DNA of 41,547 nucleotides, from the NCBI GenBank assembly GCA_000310025.1, contig FN649740.1, forward strand, positions 2,589,981 through 2,631,527. Direction: 5' to 3'. Under the pieces are notes generated by a model. That model searched no databases, was not told the DNA's origin, and worked only from the letters and a program-made list of their open reading frames with translations. This document shows, piece after piece, positions 3,465 to 41,280 of the stretch. This stretch comes from Ectocarpus siliculosus. Its lineage: Eukaryota > Sar > Phaeophyceae > Ectocarpales > Ectocarpaceae. Both the position numbers and the translations under genes were made by a program. Numbering within the stretch: position 1 is the stretch's first letter; every line of letters starts with the position of its first letter.

Positions 3465-6440
3465 CTGGCGTCGGTGGGATCCCGAAGAACAACAAAATAA
3501 CGCCATAACAACACCAACTGCTGTCGCTTGGCTCCTACCGAAATCTTCAAAACGACTCCAAGCACGACAACCAACATGGACGATCCACACGCTGGCACAT
3601 CAGAGCGTCCCCCAAAGCTCATCATGATCGCCATTCCCCACCCAAGAAGAGAAGGGCTGACCATATTGCTAACCAATCCTGGACTCTTGAAAAGTGGACA
3701 GATGCCTTTGATTCACTTTTGTAGGACCACCGCCAAGAAGCACACAAAAAAACAAGCGTCTCTCACCATGAATGTGTAGGCCTTCTGGTCCTTGATCTGG
3801 GCCCTCTGCCCTAGGTTGTGCAGGATACCGGCCTCGTGGATGTGGTGCAGCGACGTCATGTCCGCCACCACCTTGGGGTTGTGTGGGTGGGCCTCCCCGA
3901 ACCCCTGAGCTCACCGTCGCACACAGCACACACACAACACAACACAACACAACACACCGAGAGCAGCAGACGACGGCAAGAAAAGGCCAAGCGAGGGAGA
4001 AGAACACGCGGGAATGCGGACATTACTATCGGGGGCAAGGTAGAGGGGGGGTGTACTCATGTCAACGCATGCCGCAATCGCAAGACCATTGACCTCGCAT
4101 CCCGACAAAACCGGGACTGAGCGATATGCCGGGTTTTCGCCGGTCAAGCTTACGTTTCACAAGGATGGACCAGAAGCTGGTCATCCTCCTTGCGTTTGCT
4201 GTGCCAAACCAGATATGCCATGGTTTGATTGGGCATCCCGGCTAAACAAACGCTCCACATATTCGGTAGGCACGAGTGTGCTGCAAGTACCGCAAAGGGA
4301 CTTGTGAAGGTGGGGGGTCGTAAGTGTGTGGGGGTCAGTTCGGCGTAGTTGTAGTATCCGAAATGCGCGGTTGTTTTCTGGCCTCGAGCCCTTTGTGTTG
4401 AGGGGGCAAACACCAGGCATGCCAGGTCGGAATCCTTCCGCTCCCTGTCGCCTGCTCAATCTTGTGTTAACCGTCATTCTAAACATCTTTTTGCCCCCCC
4501 CTAGATGTAGAATACCACGCGCCAATACGCGAAGGGGGAGAGGCACCGAGGGGCCCCGCCCCCGTTGCCATCTTTGTACACATGTCTCTTGAGTCCTTAC
4601 AAATACACGGCAGGTTCAACCAAGGTTGGTATTTACTATTACCACATCTGGTATCTTTTTCGCGGAAGGGCAAGCGTGCGTGCATGTTACGTCCAAAGAA
4701 CTACGGGGGGGTACCGAGAGGTCATTCTCGACAGAAGCTGCTCTCGGGTGGATTCTCTTCCTTCAGGTTGGCACAATTGCCGGTAGCCGGGCAACCCCCG
4801 GCACACTCGTATGGTATACGAAATGCTCTTCTGCCCGCCCCCCCCCGAGGTCAACGATTAAGAGGGAACGCGCCAGGGCATTTTGCCCGAAACTGGATTA
4901 AGGACCAAATCGAGAGAGGGAAGGGTACTACCGTAACTCCGGAGGAGGGCTTAGTATTGATCTACAAAACCTGTAGCACACCACTTGTATATGGGTTTTA
5001 GAGTGCGGTACTATTGCAGGTGAAGTAAAGTGAGATGCTGCACATTGTACTATAATAATACCTACTGCTGTAGGATGAAGGACAGTCATTTGACTATGTA
5101 GTCCGCGGTGACGATAACTCGTGTTCGCGGATCCAACAGCATGAACAGCTCCTTCGTGGTCTTCGACTCTCTCCCTCTCTCTCTCTCTCCTCCACGAATT
5201 GATCCCCTCAGCAAGTTATGTTCCTCTTCTCACTGGCTCTTTGGAATCACACCGCTGTCACGCTTCTGTTGCGTTACCAATCACCATAATTGATTGCAAA
5301 ACTGGCCTCGCTCTCACGACCTGCGACGCTTATCTACAGTAGTCGCGGCTCGGACATAAGAGGGTACCTGAATAAGAGGGGGCTTCGATAAAGGGGATCG
5401 AAATCGATTGTCACTCACCCGACCCTCTTACAATCGTAACTCGAGTGCTCTCTCATTCCGGTATAAGGGGGGCTCCAACATATGGTATCTAAGAGGGCCG
5501 AGGGCCTTTGTCAAACCACCCTCTTGTACTACTATTATACTAAAATCGGAGCCACGACTGCTGCACCAGTGAGTGCGAGGTGTGGAGATGGGAGTGATTT
5601 GAAGCTCCCGCTTTGAGCGGCACAAGCAGATTTTACAAGCAAAGAGGCCATGGTACAGTACTGCTGGACGTTGTGAAGTTTCTTGGTGGTCTCCACTTGG
5701 TCCTTCACCACGACAAAAAAAAAGCACCAAACAATCCCCGGATAGATGCCGGTGGGGACACACATGTCCACGTTAAATTTCTCGTATTTAGGTAGACGTT
5801 CGCGCAGTACACAGCAGCAAGGGCCGCCCCGTAGCTTGCTGTGTGTCCCAACGATATAGTGACGCATGTTGCGACTGCTGTGAACCGTACGTATGTTCTG
5901 TCGAGACGAGGCGTCATGAGCGAAGAGCACAGCAGCAGTTGCAATAGCGAGAGAACGGCCCTCGACGTGATGGTTTGCTGCGGACAGCTGCGCGGTGCAC
6001 CCATCGGCGTGGGCGGCGGGATGTCCGTTTTCTCTTCATCTCTCACGCACAAGCAGAAATGAGAATAATATTTAGCTGGTGGACGAGGGCCGTGCGGAAA
6101 ACACGGAAAGGAGAGTAGGCTAGAGGAGAGCGGTCGAGTGTGTCGAAGGTTACCTACCCACGTATATAAACCGCATCCTTATGCATAGCACCGTAGGAGG
6201 TGCTGTGAAAGGCAGTCTGTTTCTTCTTCTCACCAGATCGATCTCCTGGGTTTCGCCAGTAGCCTTGTTCCGCACCCGCAGCAGCGTGTTGTCCTGCGAC
6301 AGCACCTCTACCAGGACCCACATCTTGTCCGGGTCCTCGGTCCACACCAGAGACCCGTCGGGCCTCTTGTCCGCCCTGAACGCCTTCTTAGACATGGACG
6401 ACACGATGCCCCTTGGAGGGGCTGTGTTGTTCGGCGGCAT
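1144..6440 (-). CDS. Myosin heavy chain, N-terminal part of motor head (partial, 6 exons)
   Basis: This gene encodes an actin-based motor ATPase; only the first part of the head is in the window. Exons on the minus strand are 6440-6234 (or from the Met at 6395), 3904-3767, 3121-3008, 2504-2392, 1962-1734 and 1218-1144. All have GT donors, AG acceptors and matching phases. Exon 1 holds the SH3-like N-terminal subdomain ([18 protein letters not shown]). Exon 2 reads [20 protein letters not shown], and exon 3 has [10 protein letters not shown] and PHPYAIAE. Exon 4 has the P-loop GESGAGKT. Exon 5 has [10 protein letters not shown], switch [11 protein letters not shown] and [13 protein letters not shown]. 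Exon 6 begins [11 protein letters not shown]. These are in the normal family order, with no frameshift or lost ATP-binding residue. The relay, actin-binding, neck and tail regions must lie left of the window. The class cannot be assigned from this part. Two in-frame Met codons (6440, 6395) could be the start. The introns carry many repeats. Confidence 0.93.
1415..1702. repeat. Three near-identical 96-bp tandem repeats
   Basis: Copies start at 1415, 1511 and 1607 and are essentially identical, which implies recent duplication. The array sits in the myosin intron between exons 6 and 5 and ends about 30 bp from the exon 5 donor side (1734). A plus-strand frame through it encodes a 32-residue repeat with several N-x-T sites, but it is antisense to the gene and starts over exon 6, so I do not call it a gene. 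Confidence 0.95.
3238..3312 (-). mobile_element. Short fragment of a LINE 3' tail
   Basis: This block is similar, in reverse orientation, to 12815-12890 downstream of the LINE relic in NPL4. Shared parts include the stretch with ACCGATCACCGATGG and the stretch with GGTGGCTCAAAA. It lies in myosin intron 2 and represents a 5'-truncated copy of the same family. Confidence 0.6.
3406..3463. repeat. CAG/CAA trinucleotide microsatellite
   Basis: About 19 CAG or CAA triplets in the myosin intron between exons 3 and 2. All frames are open across the repeat, which generates spurious Gln, Ala/Ser and Cys/Leu reading frames. Confidence 0.9.
4035..4110. repeat. Dispersed poly-G-led repeat, copy 1
   Basis: A G tract is followed by TGTACTCATG, GCATGCCG and AGACCATTGACCTCGCA. 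The same ordered blocks recur at 13750-13845. It lies in myosin intron 1. A shorter resemblance (G tract, then ACTCATG) occurs at 3149-3180. Confidence 0.6.
5337..5530. repeat. Cluster of ATAAGAGGG-like motifs, possible DNA-transposon end
   Basis: ATAAGAGGG, ATAAAGGGG and ATAAGGGGG motifs recur about every 15-20 bp from 5355 to 5395 and again near 5463 and 5492. Inverted versions (CCCTCTTA, CCCTCTTG) lie at about 5420 and 5518. This resembles degenerate pogo/Tigger-type termini, but no transposase is present. It lies in myosin intron 1. Confidence 0.35.
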
Positions 6441-8119
6441 GTTTCTGGTTACCTCTCGCCGATATGCAGCGTTCGCTCTCGCGCGTACGTCGGTGTGACA
6501 CCTTTTGATAGCCCGGGGGAGGAAGGATGCTTCGTGCAGCTTTCTTGCACAAGCCTTGCCCGCGAGGAAGAGGTGGATCAACGGACAACCCCCTCCACTA
6601 CTGCTGTACCCACCCAAGCAAGCCGGAGTGAACGGGCAGCACAGCAAGAGAAGGAATTGGTAACACAACACAGCAGTAGTTCTGTGTCTGATCACAGGTA
6701 TTTTTGGAACCTCCCACCCTTTCACCAATTCCGATTCTGCGTTCCCCCTCCGGGCTTGCTGCCGTGTCTGTTGTGTCGCATGTTTTCCGCCTGCCCTTAC
6801 GGAACCTGCTGGAAAACTGCTGTCGGGAAGCTTATACCAAATACCAACCATCGGCACGCACCATCCGAACGAAACGGTTTACGCATTTAGTTCTGGCATG
6901 TGCTTGCAGAAATCATGAAGCTCTCTTGGTGTGTGCGTAAAAAACTAAAAAACAGCGTCCACGCTTCAAACTCTTAGCGGTTCCATACATCTACACATAC
7001 CATCTACGTTGCATTGCCACAACCCCTGTGGTTGGTGAAGACTCATGCATAGAGAAAAACTCGTGTTCCGAACCTGAAATTCATGTTCGCACTCCATCCG
7101 CACGCACGCTCGGAACTTATCTGTCTATCGCTGCTTGTGCTGGTACGAATGAATAACTTCGCATTCCTTCCGATTAGGCTATTGTAGGAGCCGAAGTAAG
7201 GTGTAAGTGAACCATTGTTCCAAAAGAACTACTTCCAAAAGTACTTCAATTACAAAGGCTACAATTGTATCTATCCAATTGGAAAACCAGATCCATTCCC
7301 ATTAGACTCGACCTGTTGATAATGGTCAGCCCTGTTACATCGAAAAGCCAAAAGTCCGGCGATGCCGCGCCAACGATGAAAAAATGACGACTAAACAACG
7401 CTGCCGCGACAGCAGAGTATCGCGCCTCACATAATACATACATGGCCAAGCAAGGACAAATCGTACCCCTAGCTCGGGGATGGATACCTCCATTCAATTA
7501 TGTCCACCCGAACACCAACGTCTAGAGGTGTAGAGGTAAGAGGAGAGTGTCGATACAGGCTAACATCGTACCGACTAGCCCAGGCGAGGGAAGCGCGGGT
7601 TTTGTCGAGATGTCTGTCCGTTTTACACGTGTAGTGCATTTTCTGGACGTATGAGCCGGGGAAACGCAGAGAGTGCAATCCGGAAATCCTGGTGGATACA
7701 CCGCTGATCGGAAATTATAATTGTTATTTAACCTTCAACTTTGGGTGGCGTGTGGAAGAAGCAGGCCATCCAGACACAACACGTTTCGAGCCCCGTCCAT
7801 AAGAAAACCATCCTCGACCAACACCCACACCAACGAATGAAACGAAAGAGGCCACTTGAGAGCAGTGCACACCGAAGGGAAGCAAGCCACAACACTAGAC
7901 CTCAAAGGGGGCAAGGCAAACAACACGTTTTCTTGCTTCAACACAGGGAAAACCTACAAATCATGGGGCAGGCTCGGACTACACACTCTATACGCCCCAT
8001 GAGCAGCAGTTCTACACGCCCAACAACCAAAAGCAAGGCAGTTCTATCTCAATACATACATGACCGCAGCTGCTGCCTCAGTATGATTCTCATGTTCAAA
8101 CGTTGATGCACGACTCTTA
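6441..8119. other. Intergenic: myosin upstream region and 3' flank of the ASAF gene
   Basis: No supported exon on either strand. It should contain the myosin promoter and 5' UTR and the 3' UTR of the plastid-targeted gene. A TACTGCTGTA site at 6599 is about 160 bp upstream of the myosin start. No convincing TATA box can be assigned. Confidence 0.55.
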
Positions 8120-9138
8120 TCATGCCGTCTCCCCGTCCCCGACACCGGCATCTCCACCGTCTGCCCCTTCTTCATCGCCATCGTCATCCCCGTTGCCATC
8201 TGCGGCGGCAGCGGCGGCGGCGGCGGCGGCTTCCGCGGCCTTCTTCTTGTTCTTCTCGATCACGTCGAAGAGCGCGTTGGCGTCGCTCCCGAACATGCTC
8301 GTCGCCGCCCCTGCCGGCTCCACTACTTTCCCGGAGAACTGGTCGCGGGAACACAACAGCAAAGTCGTAGCGGACACCCGAGGGTTACATAGACCAAGGT
8401 CGAAACGCTACACTGCTGTAGAGATGGAAACCAACTGGCCCTAATGACGCGTCTTGAAACATGATTAATTGTTGTCGCATTTCTTTGGGCGGAAACGCGC
8501 CTCATGACGTGGAAGATGACGAGGAAGGAAAGTACATCAGGACGACAACCAGGGCAACTACCATGTCTCTGCACCCCGACCTTCTTCGGTCTGAACGACC
8601 CTCAAACAACCACTCCCCCGGCGCAGCGGCTTACACGTTGGGTTATGAGGGACGGCGAGAGGAGCTCGCTAGTAACGTGGAGTCGCTCGACAGGCGGCGG
8701 TGGGCATCCTGTTAGAGTTTCCGCCAAACGCTGCAGCAGCAAGTTGCCATGATACGTCGTCCCATTCCAAGTTGACAGCACGGGGTCAACATAGATAGGC
8801 CAACCAACAAAGCGTGAGGGCAGCACAGCCAGCCTCCTTGCCGGGCCACGCAACTAGAAAAAAGCATTCTTGATTGACCGGCGGTCGTTCCTCACGTTTT
8901 CCTCCATCTCGACCTTGACCTTCCTCTTGATGCCGTGGAGCGGCGCCAATCTCTCCGCGCGCTTCGCCGATCGCGAGGAGGAGGAGGCGGAGGAGGATGG
9001 TCGTGGTGGTGATGATGAGAGGAAGGCGGACGCCGGCGACAGAACAACGAGAAGGGCCGCCAAGAACAACGCCAACAGTGGCCGTCCCGTGCGGCAGCTG
9101 CTTCTGCCGCGAAGGCCGGTGGGCCGTCTCGACAACAT
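8120..9138 (-). CDS. Small plastid-targeted protein with ASAF presequence (2 exons, hypothetical)
   Basis: Exon 1 is 9138-8896 (81 codons, donor AAAAC|GTGAGG) and exon 2 is 8338-8120 (acceptor CGACCAG, stop TGA), giving 153 aa in one continuous phase. Residues 1-18 are basic, and 19-38 form a hydrophobic signal core (LLALFLAALLVVL) ending SPASAF. A Ser/Pro/Arg-rich stretch lacking acidic residues follows. This is the signal peptide plus transit peptide layout, with Phe at +1, that heterokont algae use for stroma-directed proteins. The mature part has a basic-acidic stretch (KRKVKVEMEEN), then FGSDANALFDVIEKNKKK. It ends in an Ala run and a Gly/Asp/Glu-rich tail. I do not recognise the mature domain. 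Targeting is well supported by family knowledge; function is unknown. The exon 1-2 junction is inferred from splice signals and phase. The gene is divergent from NPL4. Confidence 0.72.
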
Positions 9139-10328
9139 GTTTCCCCGCGTGTGAAAAGAGCAGTGTTCGGTTCGCCTGTTGTCGTGTGCATACGCAAGAC
9201 AGAGACAAAGGAGGTTGTAGAGGGTTGCTTCATGTTGCAAGTTTACAGCAGGAATATTTTTGTTTATCGTGGGGCAAGGAAGCACCGACTACAAGGCATC
9301 GCGGGCCAACTCTTCTATATACCACGACAAGTACTGCCTACAAAAGTACCAAACTTCGACTACGGTTGGAATGCATCACGACATCAACCTAAAACACTAT
9401 GTTACACCCCCACATCAATACTTACCCTCACCGTCCCGTCTTGGATAAGGCGTAGTTTTTGCGTTCAGCACAGAGGGCGTTTTGGAAATAAATGGTGATA
9501 GCAGCAGCGCAGTCGGCGGCGCAGAAGGCACAGACCACAAGACGCAGGGAAGAGGGGTTGAACCCTGTATTGTACATCCCTTTCAGACTACTGCTGTACT
9601 GCATACTACTGTATAGCATCAGACCTGATGCGTACCAGGTACATGTGGGTACATGCGCACCTGCTGTGTATATATACAAGTACATCGCTGCTTTAAATCG
9701 CTACCAAGACGCTCCTTCACAACGCCTACTCTCACCTGCTTTGTTCTCCACACACCGCTCAGCACACCAGGCTCCTGCTGTGCTCTCTGCTGACTCTACT
9801 CTCAGCTCTGGACTGCGAAAAGAGGAGTTAGGTGGGGCTCCGCGAAATACAACGCATCCATAGACAAAATAGTACATCCCTGTCCAGTTTCGGTCTATAC
9901 TCTACGCGAAGCCCCATCGGGCTGATGCTGGACTCGCGAAGTGCGAGCACCTCACCAGCCTGGCTCAGCTCACCTCTCATCATAGTTGGCTCTCCTTATC
10001 TGGTTGAGAATTCAGGCCGTTTGCCTTGGTCTATCAGTTTTTCACGGTAAGTGCAACCACGGGTAGTGCAACAGAGCTGTTCATGTAGCGGTACTCCTGT
10101 AAATACCCCCAGGCAACAGCAGTACTGTATCTATGTGCTCTGCGCTTGCCAGGTGTGATGATCCTACACGCGCTAGCAGGCATGCTACCACTGCCCGATG
10201 ACGCCAACACCACATGTACATTGATCTCTCTTGTGCAATCACTCCGTACAATACCGCTTCTCCTGTACACGCTGTCAACTATCTTGCTCGCTGGTCAGAG
10301 CGATTTGTTCAAGACCCATCCAGCAGAC
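9139..10328. promoter_or_regulatory. Divergent intergenic region between the ASAF gene and NPL4
   Basis: The two start codons face away from each other across 1.2 kb, so both promoters must lie here. A TACTGCTGTA site is at 9589, followed within 15 bp by the variant TACTACTGTA. A further 9-of-10 match is at about 10113. No exon is supported, although an NPL4 5' UTR exon could be present. Confidence 0.5.
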
Positions 10329-13300
10329 ATGCAGGCCCCGACAAGGGCAACATCAACAGCAGCCCGCTGCCGATGGCGTCGACAGCCGCAGAGCTACCAC
10401 ACGCACCAAGCACCGCTAAACAACAACAACAACATCAGGAGAAAGAAACCCCCACGCCGGCGTAGCAGTAGTTCCGCGTTCTCCACCTCCCTGTCCCTGG
10501 TACTACTTTTAGCGGTCTGCTGCTGGTGCGGGCGAGCGGCGGCGGCGGCGGCTCCAGGAAGCCCGCTAACGCTGCGCGTTCGCATGCCGGACGGCGCCGT
10601 CAAGCGCGTGAAAGCGACGGGCGCGGACACGATCGACGGCATACTGGGCAAGTTGGGGATGGAGAAGGGCGACGGGGGCAGCGGGGAGGGGTTGAGCACG
10701 GACGCCTCTGCAGGGAGTTCCACGGCGGACGGTGCGACGTCGGTGGCGGCCCTGGGTCTAGGGAACGGGGACTTCTTGTACGTCAAGGTTAGTGTGCGTA
10801 TCATAGGTGGCCTTTGATGTTAGGAACACAAATACGTGGGGGTGCTTATCCACCGGGTGACGAGCTAGTCGTGCTCGTCGTATGGCCATTCCGCTCCGTG
10901 TGATGCTGACTCGATTTGTCTCGTGCACAAGTCTCTCTTGTGATGTAGCCAAAGCCAAGGGTATCGATACATTGGCGGCGCACGCCGGGCGTGATGTTCC
11001 ACGACACGTTGCGACGTAGCCGTCAAGCCCTTGCTGTTTGTGAACGGCCTAACAAGATTTCAAGGGCAAACAAGAACAACGGAGACATACTTTTTCGCTG
11101 GTTTGGTGTGCAATCCTTCCTTCGCCCTGTGAGGGCAACTTCCCTGTGCCCCAAGCGTAAAAGCAACAGCCGCCGCTCCGCTGGCGAACATTTCGTCGTC
11201 TTTTTCTTCCTTCCGCCACAGAGCGATTCGGCCGCGCGGGCCGCGGCGAAGGCGAAGTCGGACGCCTTGGGGAGGATGAAGGCGGCGGTCGTCGGAGACA
11301 AGACCGGCGGGAGCAAGTTCGTGCCGTTTCCCCAGCACGCCAGGTATGGCTTTTTGGAGGTGTGCCTGGTGGTGGGTGCGCTTGAGCTTTGGTGTTGTTG
11401 CTGCTCTGCTATTTCCGACCGTGCTCGGAAAGGGATGCTTGTTTCTGGTCACGGCAAAGCTACAGTAGGCTCATCTGTCCCTGGCGATGTTGTAGCTTCT
11501 TTCCGTAGCGATTTTGTAGGCTGAAATTGTCGTGTCGTCTCGCCGGTGCTTGCTCCGTGGAGGAGTGGACACTCGGTGGACGTGTGTGAGGACCCTGTTC
11601 GGCAGCTTCTTAAGTGGTTGAGCAGGCTTATGGTGCTCGCTGAAAACACACCCCATTACTTTTGTCAAACGGGGTGGGTCTATAACGGCAGGCCGCCGCC
11701 GCCACGAGCGACGAAGCGCGTCAAGACCTGGCAGGACATCGAGGCCATGCAGGCGCAGACCTTCTCCCTCAAGCCTCAGAAGGACTCGAACGTCAAGAAG
11801 ATCAGCGTGGAGCAGTCCGCCATGGACGACTTCGTTGGGTGAGCCCCAGCACTCCTTTTCCTGCGCTTTTTTTTTCTTTTCTTTTTTTCCAACTTCTCGC
11901 GCTTGATCCAGCGTGTCGTATTCGGACTTGTGTGTGTTTGCGTTCTCAGGGGCTTGAGCTTCGGGCCGAAACATGGCTGGGTGCCGTGTTTACTTCAATT
12001 AGCTTTTGGAAGACACTGCCGTAACTACAAAGACAAATTGGCACGTCGTGGGGTTATGAACGCGTGCCCTCCTGCGCGCGCGCCGGCATCGTCATGTCCA
12101 ATATTAATATTCTGGTGGTAAAGGGTGAGGCTAGAAATGAAGACCCCCCACCTCGGGCGACATGGCAGTATCGCATGTGCAGGATGGGAGAGGAGAGGTT
12201 GCCGAGAATAGTATTGGAGGCGAAGTGGGCAAACAAAAAGAGGGGTAGACAACCCACGGAATGGGCCAAGGTTGTAGAGGACGTGTGGAAGGGGTTCGAC
12301 GAAGGCGAAACGCTGGAAACGGAGGGTCTACACGGGTTCAAGGAGAAGATATCTGTTGCTTGTGCCGAGAGAGAAGAACGGAATCTAAGGAAAGAAACCG
12401 AGGATAAGGAGGGTCTAGAACTGTACGGAATGTTGGAAAGAAGGCATAGGGTTCAAAGATCACCTACATGGACCAATGAATGCAGGGACAACGCTTAAGG
12501 TCAAATTCAGGACCGGGGACATAGGCCTTCGAGAACGTCGACGAAGACATAGGACGGTAGGCGACGAAGACGACAAGTTCAAATGTGATTGCGGCTTCGA
12601 ATGCGAAGACCGTGTTCATGTAGTCGCGGAATGTCAGTAGTACGAAGAGGAGAGGGAAGTGTACATGACTGAGCTGGGAAAAATACAAGGGAGGTACAGG
12701 GAGATGTTTGAGGCATAGAATAGAGAGGAGAGGACGGTAGCTGTACTGGGGAGTAGGAAGTGGTTTGAAAAGGCGGGAAGGGTTGTCGTTAGGATAGATA
12801 GATAGACTAGGGACGACATTTTTGAGCCACCTTTGGCAAAGTAGGAAGGAACGATTGGCCATCGGTGATCGGTCATGTGGAAACCATGCTCCGTCCTTGC
12901 CCCTCATTTGCGGGGCTCCTCTTTCGGACCTCTCGCCTTGCTCGTCGGGTGACTCCCGGAGCACTGCTCTTCCGCTGACATCGGTGACTTATTAAACCTC
13001 TCGTGTGTGTGGTTTGCCTACAACCATACCAGCACGAGCGACGCGCTCCTCCGCAAACGGAGGCAGGTGTGAGGGTCATCGGTGTTTTCACAGCTGACGA
13101 CGTGCCTGACCAAAATGACCACACCTCCCGCGCAGCAGCAGCAGCAGCAGCAGCAGCAGCACAAAAAAATCCTACCCGCTTTTCTTAAGGCCCCCCTCCG
13201 CCCCGACCCTTTGCGCGACGACGCCTCCTTCGAGCAGATATCTCAAGCAGACGGGTCTGCGGAAGCACCGGTGCGCCCTGCTGTTCGGGCGCGTCAGCCC

Positions 13301-16300
13301 AAGCACCAACGGCGTCAAGGTGGAGGCGATGTACGAGCCCCCTCAGCAGCAGCCGCAGCGGCAAGAGGGAGGCAGTAGCAGCAGCAGCAGCAGCAGCACG
13401 TACGATCCGTCCGCTCTGGCGGAGGCTGCCAGGGTGGCGGTGGCGGCGGCGACGCTGGAAGACGGTGGGAGTAGGGAGTGCGAGGCCGAAAGCTCCGCGG
13501 CGGCGGCGGACGTNNNNNNNNNNNNNNNNNNNNNNNNNNNNNNNNNNNNNNNNNNNNNNNNNNNNNNNNNNNNNNNNNNNNNNNNNNNNNNNNNNNNNNN
13601 NNNNNNNNNNNNNATTGCAAGCCCAAGGGCTCCGGGGGGGCGGCGGACTTTCCCCGGGTTGGGGGGGGGGCGGGGCTTTGGGGGTGGCGCTGGGGGGGAG
13701 GGTCCTTCCCCCCCGCCAGGGGAAAAGGGCCAGGAGAGGGAGGGGGAAGGGGAAAGGGGGGGGGGGGGGGGGGGGGTGTACTCATAGTCGTTCATAGTCG
13801 TGCATGCCGTAGTCGTTAGACCATTGACCTCGCAGTAGGGGGGGGGCGCAATAACGATTGGACTGCAGCGGAAGTTGCGGCGTTGTTTTGCCGTAGTGCG
13901 TTTGCTTGTCGGCAGGGTAAGGCCGTGCGCCACATGGCTCGTGCAGCGCGCCATGAGAGATGCCCCCCTGTCTCTCCCATCCACAGGGGTTTCGCAGTTC
14001 ACCCACTGGTCGGCGGTTCTAACTTCGGTTTGATCTCGGTTTTTAGGTTTGTGCTAACCGTTTGTCTTTCTTTCGAAATACTCAAACGTTTTTGTTCCCA
14101 CCTCACGAACCACTTTGGCGACTGGGAGGTGCCGTGCCGATATAGCCCCGAGAGTCTTTGTGTTATTGCTGGTAGAGCCGTGTGTCCTGGCTTGGGTCCG
14201 ACTCCGACAGTACTCGCTCGCCCTCCGTCGCTTCTTGTTCCGTTTTTTTTTCCCTTTTTCCAAAAAGAGGGAGCACTTCATGGCGGCCGCGGACGTGGCG
14301 ACGGCGGCCGCCCTGCAGCTCATGTCGATGGCGGACAAGGGCAAGGAGGAAGGCGTTCTCGTGGCCACGGTGACGGTCCCAGTCAACGCGACAACTGGAG
14401 AGGTACGCACGAGATACAAACTGTGAAAGCGAAGGCCTATCGATCCTTTTAGTGCTTTTGGATTTTAAAGCTAGAGGTGTCAAAGAAAAAATGCCGCAGG
14501 GGTAGCTTGTGGCAGCCAAGCGTTCGTGACGACGTTGCTTGTGTGCGTTCTTCGATGTGTGCTCGCTCAGCTACCCATCGCATTTTTAGTGGACGGTGAT
14601 GGTGACTACCGCCGGTGACAGTTCGCGTCACTCGAGAGGGTGTCAATTGGCTTTGCTTTGAGCCAATAGTGTGGCTGGAATGTTTTCGTGCGTAACGTTT
14701 CGTGTTTGCGCGGTACGGAACGCGCCGCCACTTAAAGAACAAAGGGGTTAAGATGTTGAGCCTCAAGAATATCAAAAGTTTTTAAGAACTTGAGCACCAT
14801 TTGTGAGCTCGGATAAGAACTACTACGCTAAAACCTATGGAGCGACCATGTCGTAGCATGACCCCAGGAATACGGTAAAGAACCCCACCCTCGGCCGAAC
14901 TAAAAAGAGGTTCTCAAGTGGTGGTGCGTTCTGTAGTGATTGGAAATTTCATGTGTTGGTGTGTAAAGTTTTCGTGTTTGCCTCCGTCATCTGTTTCGGT
15001 GACAACACCCGTTGCACGGCAAAAAGCGAAATTTGAGCAACCGGGTGGGCGTTGGATTAGATATTTTCATGTCCAACAAGCGTGCAGGCTCAATCTTCCC
15101 TTGCACATGTACTCAAATTTACGCCTCCGCTGTTGACCTTGTGCGCCCGCGAACACCCGCACACACACACACAAAAAAATAGATGGCGACGGAAGCTTTC
15201 AGCGTCAGCAACCAGACCGTGCAGATGTTCAGCGAGGGGGTGCTTGGGCACCACCAGCCCGAACCAACCGCGGGCAGGTGAGGACACTACTGTTGCAGTA
15301 AAAAAGAACACGGTGTCTTTTTGCCATCGTAGCGCAATTGTGATCCAGTACAAGGTCGCATGAAGTTGGCGCCGGTCGCCCTGTTCAAGGCCGGTGAAGT
15401 CGAGTGACACCGATGGGATATTCGAGCTGTCTCATTCATGCTCTCGAGAAATGTCATTGGTTCGGTAGAACGCCCGTCAGCCCAGATCCCTTGGCACCGT
15501 CGTGCGGCTTTAATCAGGGCAGCACAACTAGTTTATGCGTTTGTTGTGACGCGCTCAAGTCAAGCCAGGACCGAGCGAGTCGCAAAAGTACCTCTTTTCT
15601 TAAATGCAGGTGCTGCTGCTGCGCGTCGGTTTGCGCGGGGCGGTTTCTGCCATTCCTGCGTTTTTTTTCACTGCTGAGACTTCGTTTTTTTTTTCTAGTC
15701 CGTGACGCCGCTGCGTTGTGCCGCCTAGCTGGTAGACCAACTGGCCGTGGCGTAGCGAGCCTAGTCCCGTTGATCCTGCGCTCATCCTGACTGCCTGCCG
15801 TCTGTTCCGGCGTCGTCAGCGGCGACGGTAGCAGCTTTTGGTGGTGTGGCCTATAGCCCCACCTCCCTCTCCTGCCCTGTGCACAACACGAGAACCGTTG
15901 TTGATATGTAGTACTTCCCCCCCCAACCCCCCGTGCTTTCCGTGGCTTGCGTTGGCTCGGCGTCAGGGTAGCAACTACGGCGGCGGTAAAGGAGGGAAGC
16001 AAGGAGACAACGACACCGGAGACGCTCGGACTGATCTGTAACGTGGCTATCGTTCAGCACGAGGGGGTGTTGCAGACGAGGTGGGACCGGGGTACGGCGC
16101 CCCTCTGGATGTTTTTGTGTCGTTCGCTCGCTGTTCGTGCTGTGCAGTGGGCGGTACGCGGGGGGCCTGTTCTGCCCAACGGGCTTGTGTGGTTTCCTCA
16201 GGAATATAGTAGGCTGCGTGTGTTCTGAGCGTTAGTTCCGACGGTAAGTGTAACGTATCTATTTGTCTCTCTTTCTCTCTTTGTATCACTCTGTCTCTGT

Positions 16301-17375
16301 CTCTCTCTCCCCCCCTCTCTCTGCCTGCCTCCGTCGATCTCCCCCTTCGGTTTATCTGTCTGTCTGCCTGTCTGTCTGTCTCACTCTTCTATTCCCTCCC
16401 TCTCTCCCTCTGCCCCCCCTCTCAATCTCAACCTACGCCGGGGCTGTGACTAAACGCACAGATTCCCCTCGGCGAATCGATCGAAGGCAGCGTCCCTTTC
16501 TGACCTCAAGGAGTGCCTCTTCGGGAAGATTGGATCCAAGGCTGCAGCAAAGAACCAGAAGAAGCAAAAGCAGCCGTCCTTTTTGAAGCGTCTGTCGGAC
16601 TTTCAGCTCCTGTTGTTTTTGTCTCGTCAGGTGTGTGTTGTGTGTGTGTGGGGGGGCTCGCCTTAGAATGTAAAGTTTGACACGTCTGACGACGGCTGCC
16701 GGACTTTCAGCTCCTGCTGTTTTTGTCTCGCCAGGTGTGTGTTACGGGGGGGGGGCGGGGGGGGCGGGGGGGCGTATAATATATAGTTTGACACGTCTTC
16801 TTGCAGGAACGAAACGCTTTCTTCCGCGGTGGTGGTTTTCCTCCGCGGTGGCGATCTTTGCCGATGCGTTCATACCCTAGGTGACGCAAGATATCACCCT
16901 CCCCCAGACCGATTTTCAAGGCTCGGTTTTTGTCCACGATGAAGAGGATATGAAATTAAACCTCGCGTTTCGGAAAGCTCTCGATGAGACGGCGCCAACG
17001 CCGCGCTATTTTTTAGCTCCGCCGCTCTGTCTGTTGTGGAGTACTCGGGTTTTAAAAGTCGGTCCAGGGTATGTGGTATATCTCGGTTATCTCGGTGAGG
17101 TGTGACTACGGCATGAAGCACATCACGCCCAAAAAAACATGTCTGGCAGAGACGCGGGGAGTCTCTTCTCCTCCTCCTCCTGCCCGCCTTCCCTTTCCGC
17201 GTGCCCTGGCTGACGCTCGTGTCGCGCTGTGTGTATCGCGCGCGCTCTCCTTTCTTCTCAGATGGGGTTCTCGAGAGATTTCGAAGAGCTGTGCTCCGTG
17301 GTGCAGAAGCGAGACGGAAAGAGCCCCGCCCTGGACAAGCTCAAGGTCGTCCTGGAAAATCTCTGCGACGCATGA
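10329..17375 (+). CDS. NPL4: NPL4-type CDC48/p97 cofactor with hydrophobic leader (9 exons seen, gap inside)
   Basis: NPL4 works with UFD1 and CDC48 to extract ubiquitinated proteins. Exons are 10329-10787, 11222-11343, 11692-11838, 13238-13513 (runs into the N gap), 14268-14402, 15183-15277, 15967-16080, 16462-16630 and 17262-17375. Apart from the joins across the gap, every phase agrees. Exon 1 has a ubiquitin/UBX-like fold (LTLRVRMPDGAVKRV, then GNGDFLYVK). Exons 3-4 carry KRVKTWQDIEAMQ, a YLKQTG segment and the MPN-like LLFGRV with MYEPPQ. Later exons carry EAFSVSNQTVQMF, GLICNVAIVQHEG, FPSANR and the C-terminal signature LSDFQLLLFLSR. It ends EELCSVVQKRDG to ENLCDA and TGA. No Cys/His zinc finger is visible, as in plant NPL4. 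The VGWIF-type segment is missing and is probably in the gap. The start at 10329 is the nearest upstream in-frame Met and places SLSLVLLLAVCCWC before the domain. That leader is unusual for cytosolic NPL4. The acceptor of exon 5 (AAAAAG) is weak. Confidence 0.88.
11839..13237 (+). other. NPL4 intron 3 (1.4 kb), host of the LINE relic
   Basis: The donor is GTTGG|GTGAGC and the acceptor CGAGCAG|A. The phase joins FVG to YLKQTG, as expected for NPL4. It contains the LINE fragment and, close to the acceptor, a (CAG)n run at about 13133-13160. Confidence 0.85.
12120..12890 (+). mobile_element. Decayed LINE (non-LTR retrotransposon) 3' fragment
   Basis: The conceptual translation has the C-terminal signature of many non-LTR reverse-transcriptase proteins. 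It shows CRMGEERLPRIVLEAKWA and KKRGRQPTEWAKVV, then after a frameshift near 12485 FRTGDIGLRER and a CxC...H...C block (CDCGFECEDRVHVVAEC). In-frame stops follow (near 12639, 12717 and 12804). The reverse-transcriptase and endonuclease domains are absent, so it is 5'-truncated. It sits in NPL4 intron 3 in the sense orientation. Confidence 0.75.
13514..13613. other. Assembly gap, 100 Ns
   Basis: Exactly 100 Ns, usually a placeholder for a gap of unknown size. It interrupts NPL4 exon 4 inside a low-complexity region. The next 160 bases are extremely G-rich with long homopolymers, so the sequence just right of the gap is of doubtful quality. Confidence 0.98.
13750..13845. repeat. Dispersed poly-G-led repeat, copy 2
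   Basis: A run of about 20 G is followed by TGTACTCATAGTCG, CATGCCGTAGTCG and AGACCATTGACCTCGCA, matching the order of blocks at 4035-4110. It lies in NPL4 after the gap. Part of the same motif (GACTACGGCATG, its complement) also occurs at about 17103 and 24809. Confidence 0.6.
14749..14822. repeat. Single copy of the minisatellite-flanking element
   Basis: This stretch (ATCAAA, AAGAACTTGAGCACCATTTG, GAGCTCGGATAAGAAC) resembles both flanks of the 15-bp minisatellite in the myosin gene. It lies in the NPL4 intron between exons 5 and 6 and is not amplified. Confidence 0.55.
16262..16432. repeat. CT-rich low-complexity tract
   Basis: TCTC, CTGT and CCCTCT repeats in the NPL4 intron just before exon 8. 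It may serve as a very long polypyrimidine tract for the acceptor at 16461. Confidence 0.8.
16691..16801 (+). pseudogene. Partial tandem duplication of NPL4 exon 8 end and following intron
   Basis: The last 40 or so bases of exon 8 (encoding DFQLLLFLSRQ) and the donor GTGTGTGTT recur about 104 bp downstream with only a few changes. A shared GTTTGACACGTCT follows each copy (16675, 16786). The second copy has no acceptor before it. Reading through to its donor meets a stop, so it is a non-functional exon fragment. Confidence 0.85.
16872..17096. mobile_element. MITE-like inverted-repeat element, diverged copy
   Basis: The left arm (ATACCC..., GACCGATTTTCAAGGCTCGG) and the right arm ending near 17096 are imperfect inverted complements. 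Both resemble the better-preserved copy at 19640-19862. It lies in the last NPL4 intron. Confidence 0.7.
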
Positions 17376-19210: not shown

Positions 19211-22200
19211 ATGAGCTCACCAGAAGCATCAGCTGCTTACCTAGAGCGCTACAACTTCAAGGCGCTCATGGAGTGGCTGACAGCCAGGCGAGTCACTCCT
19301 GTTGGGAGCGTCGAACGTCGGCTCGGCCGTACAGTAGTCTAGGCTTGAGATTTGACTTGGGAAGCGTGTCACAAAATATGCATACATACGCAAAATACTG
19401 CTGTACAAGCATGCGAGTTCGAAACAAGCGTATCTACAGCAGTAAAGTGAAGTGGCTGGCCACCTTTCGAACGGATTCACGATCTTCAACCTCGTGCCGT
19501 TCATAGGTCAATATATCTACAAGTGCGTTGTGGGGGAGCACTGGTCAATATCAGTACAAAACTAGGAATGAGTATGTACCACATTGGAACCACACATGTA
19601 GACTATTGACTACATAGGGCCGTCTACAGCACAGCACATATACCGTATATGACACAAGATAACACACCCCCTTGGCCGATTTTCAAAGCTCGATTTCTCA
19701 ACAGCAGGAAGAGTCACAGCGCCGAAAACGGCGGCGTTGGAACCGTCTCGTCGAGAGCTGTTCGAAAACGTATTGTTTCATTTATGCATCCTCTTCGTCG
19801 TGGAGTAATCGAGCTTTGAAAATCGGTCCAGGGGGTGTGTTATCTTGTGTCATATACGGTATCTGACTTTGGCACGTCTCTATCGTTTCTGCGTATGCAT
19901 ACATACATATGGAACATAAAAATGGGGGATATCCCATGGGCTGTCCGGCGAACAGATACATACGCACGCGCAGATGCCGTCTGTCCCGTTGATGTGTGCC
20001 GTTCGTTCCTCGCGGCAACATTACAACGCGCATACCGTCGTGGTAATTTTTTCTTTCTGCTTCTGTCACGCGATAGTCTACAGCTTTGTAGACCCCCCGG
20101 CTTATTTGGATGCTGATCGTTTCCAGCTCTCTCTCCACCCTAAGTTTTTGATTTGCACATACAAAACTTACTTTTTCACCATATGTACTCCCCAAACCCA
20201 AAAACAATTAATTAAATCAAACACCCCCATATATATATATAGTTTATTCTTTCCCTGACACCACCCATGGCTGGCTTGTGACCACGGAGGAAGGCATCCG
20301 CGTCAGTTGGACCAGTACGGACAATAGAAGTCATTGAGACGAGACCCAATGGTTTTGAAAAACTTTTGTGAGCGCGCCGATTAGTCTATTTTTTTTTTTA
20401 CTCCCCAACACATGCGATAGTGTGCAACAGCAGTGCCATGAAAAACGAGGAGGCAATCGAACATATACCAAACACGCGGATCGATGGTAGACTGTATGAG
20501 GAGTCAATAATTGTGCGTCAGCTGTGCATATGTACGAAGAACCAACCTCTCTTTCGACATTAAGACTATTGTACGTACGTTGTCGTATTGTGGGCATTCG
20601 TCCAGTGTTGTGCGCGGTGTGCGGTGGCGCGCCGATCGAGTCTGTGTGCTGATGGTGATTACGGTTCGCTATCTACAAAAGACGCGTGCACGACGTAAAA
20701 GAGCATGGGTCAACTGGTACCTACCCATTGACGTCCTACAGCAAGCATTCATTTGCCTCGGATATGGCCTTGTACTATGAGCAACGCTGCCTTCTTGTCC
20801 CTAGACTATCAGCCCAGCAATTGATCGCAGTGCGTGCGACTGGCGATGCCTGTACTCTCCAAGCTCTCCTTCTGACTGCAAAAGCTGTGTCCGTTCGTAG
20901 GTGGCGGCTTCTTGTCCGTCGTTCATATAGCCCTGAGTTGGTGCTGGTTGGTATGGGTGCAGCGTTTTCAATCTACACGCACAGCCGAAACCATGAAAGG
21001 CGATCTCACAAGAATAGCTCGTGTGTACATGGTCGTTGCACGCTGTACCTTGACGTTTGGAACCCCCACTCTGCATGGAATGCCTCGCATGTTGTACAGT
21101 AGATAACCCACCCTTCGTATCCGCCAAACGTGCGGCAGATCTATCCTACACCGCCCGGACGATCCGATGGTATTCTGTCGAGACTTGCTGGAAAGGAGCA
21201 TTGGAGAACGGGACGGGAAAACGGCCGCGTACGACCCGACCTGCCCGGCTCGGTTGCTGAAGGTAACTGTTAACTGGACCAAGCAATGCGGGTCTGTTTC
21301 CTTGGCAGGCCTATCGGCAATAATAAGACCAGGCGAATGTTCTAGGCAAGCATACGAAGGCCAGCCTACATTGACGGGTCTCCACTCTGATAGTGTATCA
21401 GCCGCGTTCATCGGAAAGACGTCGACGCACACAAACGTTTTCGCTCGAGGAGTGCCCGCTGGTGGTTGGGTGAGCGAGTGTCCACCGTCTTTCGTGCCAT
21501 GGGGGCTGGGGAGTAAGGACAGTCATCGGACATGTGACTCGAATCGGATTGTTGCAATCAAGTCCTCCACGTTCGAAAAAAAGGGATTTGCCGCTAGCCC
21601 TTGATCTCGAACCACACTCACTGAGAAGAAAGCCTCGAACGAAACCGCACGTTCCGTCGCAATATCGAAAAAAACAAAGGGATGCGTTTGTCTGCACAAA
21701 TGGCAACGCCACAAAGATGGACGAACCAAGGTTGTTTGATATGCCGCCCGCTTGTCCTTGCTGCTGAAGCTATGTTTATTGCGGTACCTGTCGGGAGGCC
21801 GTGCCCAGACACAAGCAAAATCCACTGCCGCGTTCACGGCAACGGACATTTCACTTACCCGCGGGCCACGAAAGCGTCACCTGTACGGACTTTACCATTT
21901 GACACGCTAATTGACGCTTTTAGGAAATTATGATGCTTTCCGTAACCCATCTCCTAGCACCGAACCGCCGACAACACCACAACACGGCGGCAAACACACA
22001 CACACGCAGGAGTGCTACGACGACGCGATGAACGCGGCGGACGAGCACGGCATCATCCACCCGGAGGCATGCCCCCACCCAGCCACCGGGAGAAGAGTGG
22101 ACGGTGATGTCTCCGCCGCCGCCGCCGCCGCCGGCACGGGTGGGGCCGCGAAGGACACGACAAGCAGCAGCAGCAGCGGCGACGGCGGCCCGACCGGCAA

Positions 22201-25300: not shown

Positions 25301-28099
25301 ATCTCAAACGATATTCCAACGGGAACATTGCCGTGCCCCACAGTACAGCGACAAATGGAGACGCGTGCCCACAGCCCTTGTCGGTTCCATAGCGCGTGGT
25401 AGAGGAGTTTCGATGAGTGGAGGATCGTCCTTTCCAGTCCGTGGAGGCCAAATAAAACACTAAAAGGTGTCCGAATCTTACTGCTGTACCCCTCGAATTG
25501 GTGGTTGTCTCATTTCGAGAATTCACAACAACAACGTCAGTGCTGGTAGCAAAACGTTGCGTCTTGGGAGGTCGACTTCGTGGACAACATCCATGAAAAA
25601 ACGAAATACGGCGTAGGCAAGAATTCGATGTGGTGAACCAAGCGGCGCCTACAAGCTCCCTCATCTAGTCATTTCGTTGCCATCCGTCTCTCACTACGGT
25701 CACCACCACCACCAATAACACCATACCTACCTGTGACACGTGAACCTCACCGTCAATATTCCAGCAACAACCTCATACCCAATCACGCTAGCATCATCAG
25801 CTCCATCTCCCGCACCAGCATCAGCACCAACGACAACGCCACCATAAAGCCATAAGCACAAGCAGAACCGTTTGCCAGCAAACAACGCTATCAGCAACAC
25901 CACCACCGAAATGGTAAACCAAGGCGGGGTACTCGACCAACCAACAATAAATTGCCGATTTCCCCCCAAGGTGAACCACCTGCTCTACACGATAGCCAAG
26001 TGCTTGCCGGTCATATGCGAGGCACAGAAGTGCACCTGCTTCCTCGTGGACGACGACAAGGACCAGCTGTGGGTAGTCCAGGGGGAGGTCAATATGAGGG
26101 TGCCCAAGAACAAGGGTATCGCGGGCGCGGTCGCCACCTCGGGGCACGTGAGTGAACGCAACCCCCGAGGCTTGCTATAAACGTTTGCGGGGGGGAGTTG
26201 CGGATGGAGGCTTTCCGTCTCGCATGCACGACGCCGAGGGTACCGACGAACACCAGTATTGAGACATAGGTGTATTTCTGCCGCGGGAGAGAAGGACCAA
26301 AGGAAGATGTCAAAGGGGGTTGTTGTAAGGGGGCTTGGAGCGTGCCGAGGGAAACTGGTCCCGTCCCGACTGGTGGATTCATTTTCTGCGCGATAAAAAT
26401 GCTGGCGGAGAATGGATGAACATTTTGACACTGCTTGCACGAACTCACGTCAAGACAACAGTTCGCCCCCAAAGCTTCGTTTGGATGTATGCTCTCTCAC
26501 TCATCTTGACGCCGTATACGTTTCTCGCACTAAAAAAGGCGGAGAACATTTCCGACGTGTACGCCGATCCTCGTTTTAACAAGGAGGTGGACTTGGAAAC
26601 GGGGTTCCAGACGCACTCCATCCTCGCCATGCCCGTGAGGGGAGGGGAAGAAAACAAGTCAGTGAAGCACGTAGCACTACATACCTACAAAGTTTCGCGT
26701 TCCCCCCGCTCCTATCATTGTGGTTGTGTTTACGGGAACCATTTTGTCGCGTGCGCAGTTCGCTCTCTGGCAATCAGAAAGCGAAGTCGATATGGGGCAC
26801 TTCAAGGAGCAAACAACCAGTTGGGCGCGCTTGGTGTATCGTGGACGGTCGTTCGCTCTGTCCTGGCTATGTGCGAGGCGCAAGCGATCAAAAACAACGT
26901 GTTGCTCGAGGTATTTAGTTTGCGCAGAGCAGCTGCGTAGAAGCACCATCCTCAGGAAGGCCCACGTGATCCGTTGACGTACTCCCTCCGAAACACAACA
27001 ACACCGTCAACCAGACCCAGTACGTTTCGTGATGGCACCACCTGTACCGCATCAGGGTGATTGCAGTGGTGCAGCTGATCAACAAGCAGGGGAGGATGCA
27101 TGAAAGCGGCCGTCGCGACTCTTGCACCGGCATGCACTTCACTCCTCAAGACATGGCCATCATCGGAGCCTTCCTGTCTCTGCTCGGCCCCCGCATCTTC
27201 GCGTCCAGCATGCTGCAGCCGAAGCGCAAAATGCACATAAAGGTTTTTTTCTTTTGTCGAAAAGAGAGTGAAATTTACGCCCCCCTCCTCGCCTGTCCTT
27301 CAAGTTAGCATCCAATCAGGTACCGAGGAAATCACTCCGGTCCCATATGCCGACTCCCTCTCAAATGTTTATCCTCTCCATTCTCAATACGTGCCACCGA
27401 TGTTCACGGTTGACAGCGATTGGTTTGATTCCATCACCTACCCGTAGCCTGTTGTTTGTAACCACCTATGAAGGGGCAGAAAACTGCGGGTTCGTTGTGT
27501 GAGCGGCGCTCTATAGCGTAATTACCATTAGTCTATGTGTTACTTCGAACGTAGGATTTTAGCCTATCCTTATGATCTTGCTGTCACCTCCGACGGGGTC
27601 TCGCTTGCGCTCGAGTGCCGTGGGGAGAAACTTTCTCAAAGCTAAATGTGTACAAAGCTGTCGTACCCGATTGTCACAGTGTGCCATGCTTACGTCCGTT
27701 AGGGGGAAACGCTTTTAAGTGCTAGTGGGGCCCGAACCACCCTTCGGGGTACGGTACAGTAGTAGATGGCCCCTTCCGCCGGAATCGCCGTACCTTTTTA
27801 TGTAGAGTCCAATTCCACCGATTCTCTTGCGCCTCTCAGCGCGTCGCGCCCAATCAAAATGCGTGCGCACCCAGGTGAATAAAGTCGGCGGCGACGAGGA
27901 AGCGTTTCCCGAGAACCAAGGCATCATGGACAGAATGAAACGAAGGCAGAAGTCGACGGGCTCGCTCTTGATTGGGCTGGATGTTCAGCGATTCGAGGAG
28001 AACGAGAACGAGAACGAGGACGAAGACGAGGAAGCGGCGGCTGACAACGACCGTGAAGCCACGTCTAGCCTGGGAAGCTCTTCCGTCCAGTCCAAGTAA
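19211..28099 (+). CDS. RIIa/Dpy-30-like plus tandem GAF domain protein (640 aa, 11 exons)
   Basis: Exons are 19211-19287, 21139-21262, 22010-22498, 23135-23197, 24047-24258, 24633-24758, 25121-25244, 25971-26147, 26539-26657, 27056-27242 and 27875-28099. They sum to 641 codons with every phase consistent. The N terminus (AAYLERYNFKALMEWLTA, then RPDDPMVFCRDLLERS) resembles the RIIa/Dpy-30 docking-dimerisation helix pair. Residues about 68-230 include a Ser/Gly/Pro/Ala-rich linker with a short AGAGAG repeat. GAF-1 spans exons 4-7 (RAALFKLIGEDGTLQE, GLVGRTAAA, WGVLVVAEPLG, FRTVSTMAAVSMHNSEVYG). GAF-2 spans exons 8-10 (CTCFLVDDDKDQLWVV, NKGIAGAVATSGH, DVYADPRFN, VIAVVQLINK, FTPQDMA). The acidic tail ends VQSK. 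No phosphodiesterase, cyclase or kinase domain follows. GAF domains commonly bind cyclic nucleotides or chromophores; NK...FxxxD is present in GAF-2, so ligand binding is possible but unproven. Intron 1 uses a GC donor. The gene is convergent with the TMEM19 gene. Confidence 0.88.
19288..21138 (+). other. GC-AG intron 1 of the RIIa-GAF gene
   Basis: The donor is AG|GCGAGT and the acceptor GCGGCAG|A. The joined codon (AG+A) links LTA to RSILHRPDDP, restoring one RIIa-like helix pair, which supports the non-GT donor. The intron holds the best MITE copy and two opposed TACTGCTGTA sites 30 bp apart (19396, 19435). Confidence 0.7.
19640..19862. mobile_element. MITE with 55-bp terminal inverted repeats
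   Basis: The arms 19640-19694 and 19808-19862 are inverted complements with only about two mismatches or indels, starting ATACCGTATATGACACAAG. Weaker pairing continues inward to about 80 bp per arm. There is no coding capacity, so it is non-autonomous. The target duplication is unclear (perhaps TA). Confidence 0.88.
22271..22320. repeat. AGGAGC hexanucleotide repeat inside a GAF-gene exon
   Basis: About seven GGAGCA units encode an Ala-Gly run in the linker between the RIIa-like segment and GAF-1. The reading frame is preserved because the unit is 6 bp. Confidence 0.85.
25014..25084 (+). repeat. tRNA-like/SINE-like segment (weak)
   Basis: TGGTCTATAGG fits the pol III A-box pattern. About 45 bp downstream, ATTCGATTCC resembles a B box with one deviation, followed by CGGGACCCACA. 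The ends TGTGG and CCACA can pair. The D and anticodon arms do not fold well, so it is at most a tRNA-derived relic in a GAF-gene intron. Confidence 0.25.
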
Positions 28100-40000: not shown

Positions 40001-41280
40001 ATGGCCCTGTGTACAGGTGCGCTTGCGCTTGCGAGTACAGACACGCACGTCTGCTGCATCTCTGGCGTTTTCGTGTTAAACGCATTGCTTTTGCCCGACA
40101 ATTTTCGAGGACTTGACCATTTCCGAGTTTTTCCCCTCGCGGTCCTTTGCGAAGTGCGTGCGTGTTCGTACACGTCAGTCCTCCTCCATGGTCCTCCTGG
40201 TGACATGTAGGGTAGCTGTGTGTGGTGTGTTATCTGTAACGGCATGCATCTTGGCAAGGACGCAGTACAGATAGACCTTTTGGGCTGCGAGGTTTGCTCT
40301 GCCTGCTGGTTTTGCCCGTCGGGGTCTTTCTTTTTGCCTCTCCATCACGATGGCTGTCTGTTTGTCTCTGTCTCTCTTTCTCTGTCTGTCTCTCCCTCCC
40401 TCCCCCCCCCCTTTCTCTCTCTGTTTTGCTCTGCCAGGCCTTGTCTTATCCTGTCCTCTCTTTCTCTCTCTCTCTCTCTTTGTCTTGTCCTGCCCTGCTC
40501 TGCCTTGTTTTATCCCGTCTGTATGTTTGATGGCCGTCTTGACGCTCTGGCCGCTTGCTGCAGGCGGACAGCTGAACGAGCGATCGTTCACCGAGAACCA
40601 GGTGTGCTCGGTCATGAGCCAGGTCATCCGAGCCCTCGTCTACATGCACGAGACCGCCAAGATTTGCCATCGTGACTTGAAGGTAGCGAGAGCCGCCAGC
40701 CAAAGCTTGGACGGAAAACTTTTTTTTTTTGTGCTCTGGTTGTTGTTGCGGACACGCACTTCAGAAGCCGAAATCAATTCATAGACCTCACGACTAACAT
40801 TCTTAGAAGCCGAAATCAAATCATTTGACGGGCCAACCCACGGCTAACGTTTTTTTGCGCCGAAAATGAACCAGGAGACTAGCCAGGGACCATCAGACTG
40901 GTCAGCGGCTGGCTAGTCTAACGGTTTGATTTCCGCTTCTAGACCACGCATTCTCCTGTGTGTCCACTGAACCCCGAGCAACAAACATACAGCAGTTTGA
41001 TGGCCATCTTGCGTACTAAACCACAAACCGGGCATCGGCAAAATTGCACGCCTTCCCTTTTACGTGCAGCATGTTTTTTTGGTGCGCGTCTCCTGCTGCG
41101 GCATTTGACTCCCTGTGACACCCCCCCCCGCGTTTCCGCCTGCAGATGGAGAACATCATGCTGGAGTCTCAGGACGAGCCGCTGGTGGTGAAGCTCATTG
41201 ACTTCGGGCTTTCGAAGGTGTTCACGGAGGGCGACAAGATGAGAACGGCGTGCGGAACGGTCTACACGATGGCACCGGAG
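37009..41280 (+). CDS. CDPK/CaMK-like Ser/Thr protein kinase (partial, 6 exons)
   Basis: Exons are 37009-37286, 38357-38606, 39121-39198, 39917-40016, 40564-40682 and 41146-41280, all phase-consistent (320 codons so far). The sequence runs off the right edge. Visible kinase elements are the glycine loop GQGSIGEV, the ATP lysine in LYAMKSI, the helix-C glutamate in FKNEVAMLQQLHHPNIIQL, CTGGQL of the hinge to helix D, the catalytic loop HRDLKMEN, DFGLSKVF and CGTVYTMAPE. The activation segment FTEGDKMRTACGT is typical of calcium-dependent and calmodulin-dependent kinases. EF hands or a regulatory tail would lie beyond the window. An extra segment of about 75 residues, rich in Gly, Ser, His and Pro, separates the glycine loop from the catalytic lysine. 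The start at 37009 is the first in-frame Met after a stop; an upstream exon is possible. The last donor (GAG|GTGATG) is the best guess. Confidence 0.9.
38037..38058. repeat. (TA)n dinucleotide repeat
   Basis: About ten TA units in kinase intron 1 (37287-38356), in a stretch with flanking GTAGGTA repeats (38031, 38065). Length is likely to vary between strains. Confidence 0.85.
40355..40505. repeat. CT-rich low-complexity tract before kinase exon 5
   Basis: TCTC, CTGTCTGT and CCTG repeats upstream of the acceptor at 40561-40563. It resembles the CT tract ahead of NPL4 exon 8. Confidence 0.8.
40804..40941. mobile_element. Fold-back element with nested palindrome in a kinase intron
   Basis: TAGAAGCCGAAATCAAA (40804-40820) and TTTGATTTCCGCTTCTA (40925-40941) are inverted complements with one mismatch. 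Inside, GACTAGCCAG (40877) and CTGGCTAGTC (40909) form a second perfect inverted pair. A direct copy of the left end (AGAAGCCGAAATCAATTCAT) lies at about 40763. Confidence 0.65.

Follow-up and report, generated by a model that had tools for sequence, protein, structure and literature searches.

An intron-rich algal NPL4 gene without the central zinc cluster, preceded in frame by a hydrophobic stretch of doubtful status

NPL4 is a helper of Cdc48, a protein-pulling machine. In the stretch of DNA analysed here (the window, 41,547 nucleotides), the ubiquitin-like (UBL) domain of an NPL4 gene is preceded in frame by a hydrophobic stretch, which raises the question of whether the gene encodes the symbiont-type NPL4 of the periplastid compartment, as the preliminary description suggested, or an NPL4 in which this stretch does not work as a periplastid address. 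The question matters because symbiont copies of the ERAD machinery are evidence on the integration of red-derived plastids. For now, it counts as an unexceptional representative of a known family, with a provisional 5' end.

The gene and its family assignment are firm: this is a real nuclear, intron-rich algal NPL4, encoded in one reading frame that runs through nine exons to position 17375 and ends in TGA. Its parts are as follows.

10557..10787, plus strand: exon 1, ubiquitin-like (UBX-like) domain, recognized by coding-type composition, structure matches and a model
11222..11343, plus strand: exon 2, linker
11692..11838, plus strand: exon 3, linker and start of the MPN-like region, without a cysteine cluster
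13238..13513, plus strand: exon 4, MPN-like region (YEPPQ), its 3' end meeting the assembly gap
13514-13613: assembly gap of 100 N in exon 4
14268..14402, plus strand: exon 5, start approximate (~14268), phase from exon 4 masked by the gap
15183..15277, plus strand: exon 6
15967..16080, plus strand: exon 7
16462..16630, plus strand: exon 8, NPL4 signature FP..NR .. LSDFQLLLFL
17262..17375, plus strand: exon 9, including the stop codon TGA

All seven introns readable from both sides have GT-AG borders, and the splice phases are consistent at every readable junction, the exon 4/5 phase being hidden by the gap. The readable exons contain 0 frameshifts and 0 stops and show a strong third-base bias; exon 4 carries a low-complexity QP/S-rich insert. 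The G+C content of the window is 54.0% and the mean length of the seven intact introns is 666 bases, values compatible with a brown alga though no proof of one: for three brown algae, a table of PMC6418280 (excerpt) lists a G+C content of 54-56% and introns averaging 530-740 bases.

The NPL4 identity proposed earlier was borne out by 2 matches, that of exons 5-9 to the Pfam family NPL4 (PF05021; 3.1e-07, 30.5 bits, curated cut-off 24) and that of the whole protein to plant NPL4-like protein 2 (PDB 9m3z chain G; 3.3e-10), the best match among solved chains. Exons 1-4 matched no NPL4 or UBL family in Pfam at E up to 1; the same half retrieved plant NPL4 by BLASTP (1e-06), and its UBL retrieved the human NPL4 UBL (3.2e-04), the segment from the linker to the MPN-like region being not significant alone (0.57). 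The UBL is nearer to the human than to the plant protein, whereas the C-terminal half is nearer to the plant one. Pattern scans matched 0, 31, 78, 3, and 42 stretches in a viral contig collection and 42 and 23 stretches in a genome contig collection, none of which was confirmed as an NPL4 relative.

Several other features were observed in and around the gene. The G-rich DNA following the gap at 13514-13613 resembles the end of exon 4 (33 bases, 79%) and is perhaps poorly sequenced or misassembled. The 3' end of exon 8 with its splice donor (16589-16656) is tandemly copied at 16693-16760, 104 bases downstream within intron 8, with 84% identity. Intron 3 contains the apparent tail of a broken non-LTR retro-element (~12054-12830; CDCGFECEDRVH motif, in-frame stops), the pieces of which gave 0 matches when scanned against Pfam; a search of the viral contigs with a flawed query found no relatives of it. 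At 19637-19865 lies a hairpin element whose 66-base arms are 92% complementary, and a degenerate look-alike of it was recognized by eye, and not reported by the repeat finder, in intron 8 (~16880-17110). Elsewhere in the window, 39749-40207 and 40275-40781 encode two successive parts of a protein kinase domain, seemingly a split gene (profile positions 43-83, 2.3e-06, and 91-126, 2.2e-06, both below the curated cut-off). A 15-base tandem repeat of 32.6 copies, open in several frames, occupies 561-1048, and 3 near-identical copies of a 96-base unit occupy 1415-1701. Weak matches, both below cut-off, were obtained to Myosin_N (6153-6878, minus strand, 7.8e-04) and GAF (26329-26937, plus strand, 0.0026), and a search for RNA families returned 0 matches.

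That ordinary NPL4 opens directly with the UBL, as the preliminary description stated, was confirmed for plant NPL4-like protein 2, in which this domain occupies the first residues, and the human chain agrees. In the gene studied here, 3 features lie ahead of the UBL.

10329..10556, plus strand: putative leader of 76 codons, judged from frame, composition and hydrophobicity, its translation being putative
10492..10512, plus strand: possible intron end, a pyrimidine-rich tract (pyrimidine fraction 0.76) with TAG at 10510-10512, after which an exon would begin at 10513
10047..10052, plus strand: best upstream donor-like site, with 7/8 consensus bases, at which an exon would end at 10046

The frame from the ATG at 10329 to 10787 (plus strand) comprises a basic n-region (10329-10487; residues 1-53, with 12 K/R and 0 D/E), the hydrophobic residues 54-67 (SLSLVLLLAVCCWC, 10488-10529), GRAAAAAAP and the UBL. 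The best 14-residue window of the leader has a mean Kyte-Doolittle value of 2.47. The frame is open upstream to 10089, with in-frame Met codons at 10158, 10182, and 10329; there is none between 10329 and 10584, the latter falling within the first UBL strand. In a single-sequence AlphaFold model of low confidence (mean pLDDT 58.8), residues 54-66 form a helix, and the UBL opens with strands at 79-85 and 91-97. The letters from 10329 to 10787 do translate as described earlier; the stretch is a putative part of the NPL4 protein, and the tests that bear on this conflict.

Hydrophobicity equal to that of the leader was found in 33 of the 562 other stop-free 76-codon reads of the window (3951 tiles in all), 13 of the 562 also reaching its von Heijne cleavage score, computed here and below with a matrix entered by hand. 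Among random stop-free reads, 102/3000 were as hydrophobic when drawn with the intron composition of the gene, 17/3000 with the composition of 9300-10556 and 1/3000 with the composition of the leader itself, so that these chance tests conflict with one another. The composition score per codon is −0.05 for the leader and −0.42 for its hydrophobic part, against 0.36, 0.40, and 0.21 for the held-out UBL, exons 2-4 and exons 5-9, respectively; 23% of 215 non-coding reads score at least as high as the leader and none reaches the UBL score, and the sub-stretch 10377-10451 is coding-like (0.29). This score carries no decisive weight, because hydrophobic targeting codons would depress it even if real. 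The synonymous-codon evidence is mixed as well: the leader scores 0.019, a value reached by 8.8% of the 215 null reads, and scores as low occur in 0.44% of 5000 exon bootstraps and in 8/238 contiguous exon stretches, while the third bases of the hydrophobic codons are coding-like (0.13).

The possible intron end at 10492..10512 overlaps the hydrophobic codons. Its pyrimidine fraction is attained by 1.8% of AGs window-wide and by 3/8 of the other acceptor positions tested, the remaining five lying at 0.33 to 0.57; since these five fall below 0.76, a pyrimidine tract is neither required here nor proof of an intron. As a control, we inspected in-frame reads ahead of each remaining exon, eight in all. 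The one before exon 5, presumed to be intron, nearly equals the leader (69 codons open, Kyte-Doolittle 2.36, matrix score 9.19, no Met), that before exon 2 is weaker (91 codons open, with Met and a basic stretch; 1.01 and 3.7), and the remaining six are not leader-like. A first exon was sought further upstream, among donors with at least 5/8 consensus bases in 8800-10480 joined to acceptors 10513 and 10558. An exon ending at 10046 would be untranslated at most, because it offers no ATG in the needed phase. Five donors, all 5/8, have an in-phase ATG, and none yields a short, clean N-terminus. With in-phase donors weak and N-termini odd, no satisfying candidate for an upstream coding exon emerged.

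In periplastid proteins, a signal peptide comes first and a transit-peptide-like region next, the +1 residue not being Phe (excerpt of PMC12136025). In the ATG 10329 model, cleavage is predicted after residues 67, 72, and 70 (9.3, 8.7, and 8.0), with G, A, and A, and hence no Phe, at +1. The distances to the UBL (residue 79) are 11, 6, and 8 residues, and this span of 6-11 residues leaves little room for a transit-peptide-like part, which is not seen after the putative signal peptide in this model. About 53 residues precede the hydrophobic core. For 63 diatom plastid (not periplastid) precursors, 13-42 residues between cleavage and the mature start are given in the available part of PMC3774753. 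The ATG 10329 model fits a SELMA protein poorly, and a different spliced N-terminus could alter this.

A second feature of the protein is that it lacks the central zinc-binding cysteine cluster, a new observation. Only a single Cys is present within the 108 residues C-terminal of the UBL, and the zf-NPL4 profile gave 0 matches at E up to 1. A zinc-finger exon sought in introns 1-3 yielded 2 Cys-rich reads (11386 in intron 2 and 12419 in intron 3), neither convincing; both were rejected by eye as the NPL4 cluster, the read at 12419 being part of the retro-element, with no Pfam match. According to an excerpt of PMC1949818, the central cluster is an ancestral feature that the plant lineage has lost; in human and fungal NPL4, the zinc fingers rest on the D1 ring of p97/Cdc48 (PMC7785736, in part). 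The protein encoded here would presumably dock on Cdc48 without them. If red algae share the loss, a red-algal origin would account for the missing zinc cluster in what is probably an ochrophyte; an independent loss is a possible alternative source of this build. In a four-way alignment, the protein retains 28/47 of the residues common to the other three, compared with 28/39 for plant, 28/34 for human and 28/34 for yeast NPL4, and by this measure it is the most divergent of the four, which is also a new observation. Its identity in pairwise comparison is not unusual, at 24.7% with plant, 25.0% with human and 21.5% with yeast NPL4 (plant-human 31.2%, plant-yeast 24.1%, human-yeast 39.0%).

How, then, should the hydrophobic stretch be read? 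We give about an even chance to an NPL4 in which it is not a working periplastid address. Such a protein would pair with Ufd1 and be docked on Cdc48 by its UBL, its MPN-like and C-terminal parts presumably receiving ubiquitylated proteins that are to be extracted, in the manner of ordinary ERAD. The stretch may lie outside the translated NPL4 sequence, as an intron end or 5' leader that happens to be in frame, in which case the genuine first coding exon would be an upstream one that the search did not reveal; or it may belong to an N-terminal extension that would lack the second part of a bipartite signal. The leader is doubtful because of its composition, the pyrimidine tract with TAG, the false leader before exon 5, the 33/562 equally hydrophobic reads and the 6-11-residue spacing. 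Against this reading count the lack of an ATG at the UBL, an upstream exon reachable only through weak donors, the coding-like 10377-10451 and hydrophobic third bases, the 1/3000 reads of the leader's own composition and the mere 3/8 of other acceptors that are as pyrimidine-rich; a host NPL4 might also be expected to keep its zinc cluster. The reading with an appreciable chance, although short of even, is that of a leader acting as a genuine signal peptide, by which a symbiont-type NPL4 would enter the ER and pass on to the periplastid compartment, there probably helping the symbiont Cdc48 to draw preproteins across the second outermost plastid membrane (SELMA); its transit-peptide-like part would have to be very short or lie inside the UBL. 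The h- and c-regions are locally good, with the 3 matrix scores and +1 residues given above, no in-frame ATG follows before 10584, zinc-cluster loss is reported in the plant lineage (excerpt of PMC1949818), the residue retention is the lowest (28/47 versus 28/34 to 28/39), and a periplastid Npl4 exists in diatoms (PMC5756292 and PMC6610115, both in part). Conversely, the n-region of ~53 residues is long, 6-11 residues from cleavage to the UBL compare poorly with the 13-42 of diatom plastid precursors (PMC3774753, in part), the composition of the leader is not clearly coding and has an intron look-alike before exon 5, the identities to plant (24.7%) and human (25.0%) are not extreme next to the plant-yeast value of 24.1%, and the UBL has its better match in human rather than plant NPL4. 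A more specific version is unlikely, if worth stating: a periplastid brown-algal NPL4 that kept its red-algal donor's zinc-less build, in which case zinc absence would mark symbiont as opposed to zinc-bearing host copies, and whose signal peptide would lead almost straight into the UBL without a separate transit-peptide-like part. If the difference in zinc cluster does separate the two, it would provide a simple sequence test across algae.

The signs of divergence could also be those of a decaying copy, interrupted by mobile DNA and burdened with a low-complexity insert. The lowest retention among the four NPL4s, the retro-element tail in intron 3, the partial tandem duplication of exon 8 and the QP/S-rich insert in exon 4 are in line with decay, but the exons read without frameshift or stop, the readable splice phases agree and the third-base bias is strong, making decay improbable. 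Slimmer still is the chance that the leader is translated and serves as an uncleaved membrane anchor tethering NPL4 to the ER. Its basic N-flank (12 K/R, 0 D/E) and the helix modelled with low confidence at 54-66 would suit an anchor; however, the hydrophobic core is short and, by the positive-inside rule, the basic flank stays cytosolic, which would put the NPL4 part in the lumen, where Cdc48 is absent.

The primary paper on the periplastid (SELMA) Npl4 of diatoms is Stork et al. 2012. A periplastid Npl4 alongside the host one has already been reported in diatoms (excerpt of PMC5756292), and Table 2 of PMC6610115, as available in part, lists host and symbiont Npl4 for Phaeodactylum and no symbiont copy for two Nannochloropsis species. 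Compared by description, a diatom periplastid Npl4 would resemble the gene studied here in having a start of signal-peptide type with no Phe at +1 and differ from it in that no transit-peptide-like part is visible in the latter. Human and yeast NPL4 share the YEPPQ and SDFHLLLF-type signatures and the UBL (human, 3.2e-04), but bear zinc fingers on the Cdc48/p97 D1 ring (PMC7785736, in part), where the protein described here has one Cys in 108 residues. Plant NPL4-like protein 2 (9m3z chain G) has the UBL, MPN-like and C-terminal parts in the same order, is likewise zinc-less and is 24.7% identical across the 288 residues aligned from the linker onward; it starts at the UBL, whereas the algal gene has an in-frame extension ahead of this domain, a longer linker and a Q/S-rich insert in exon 4.
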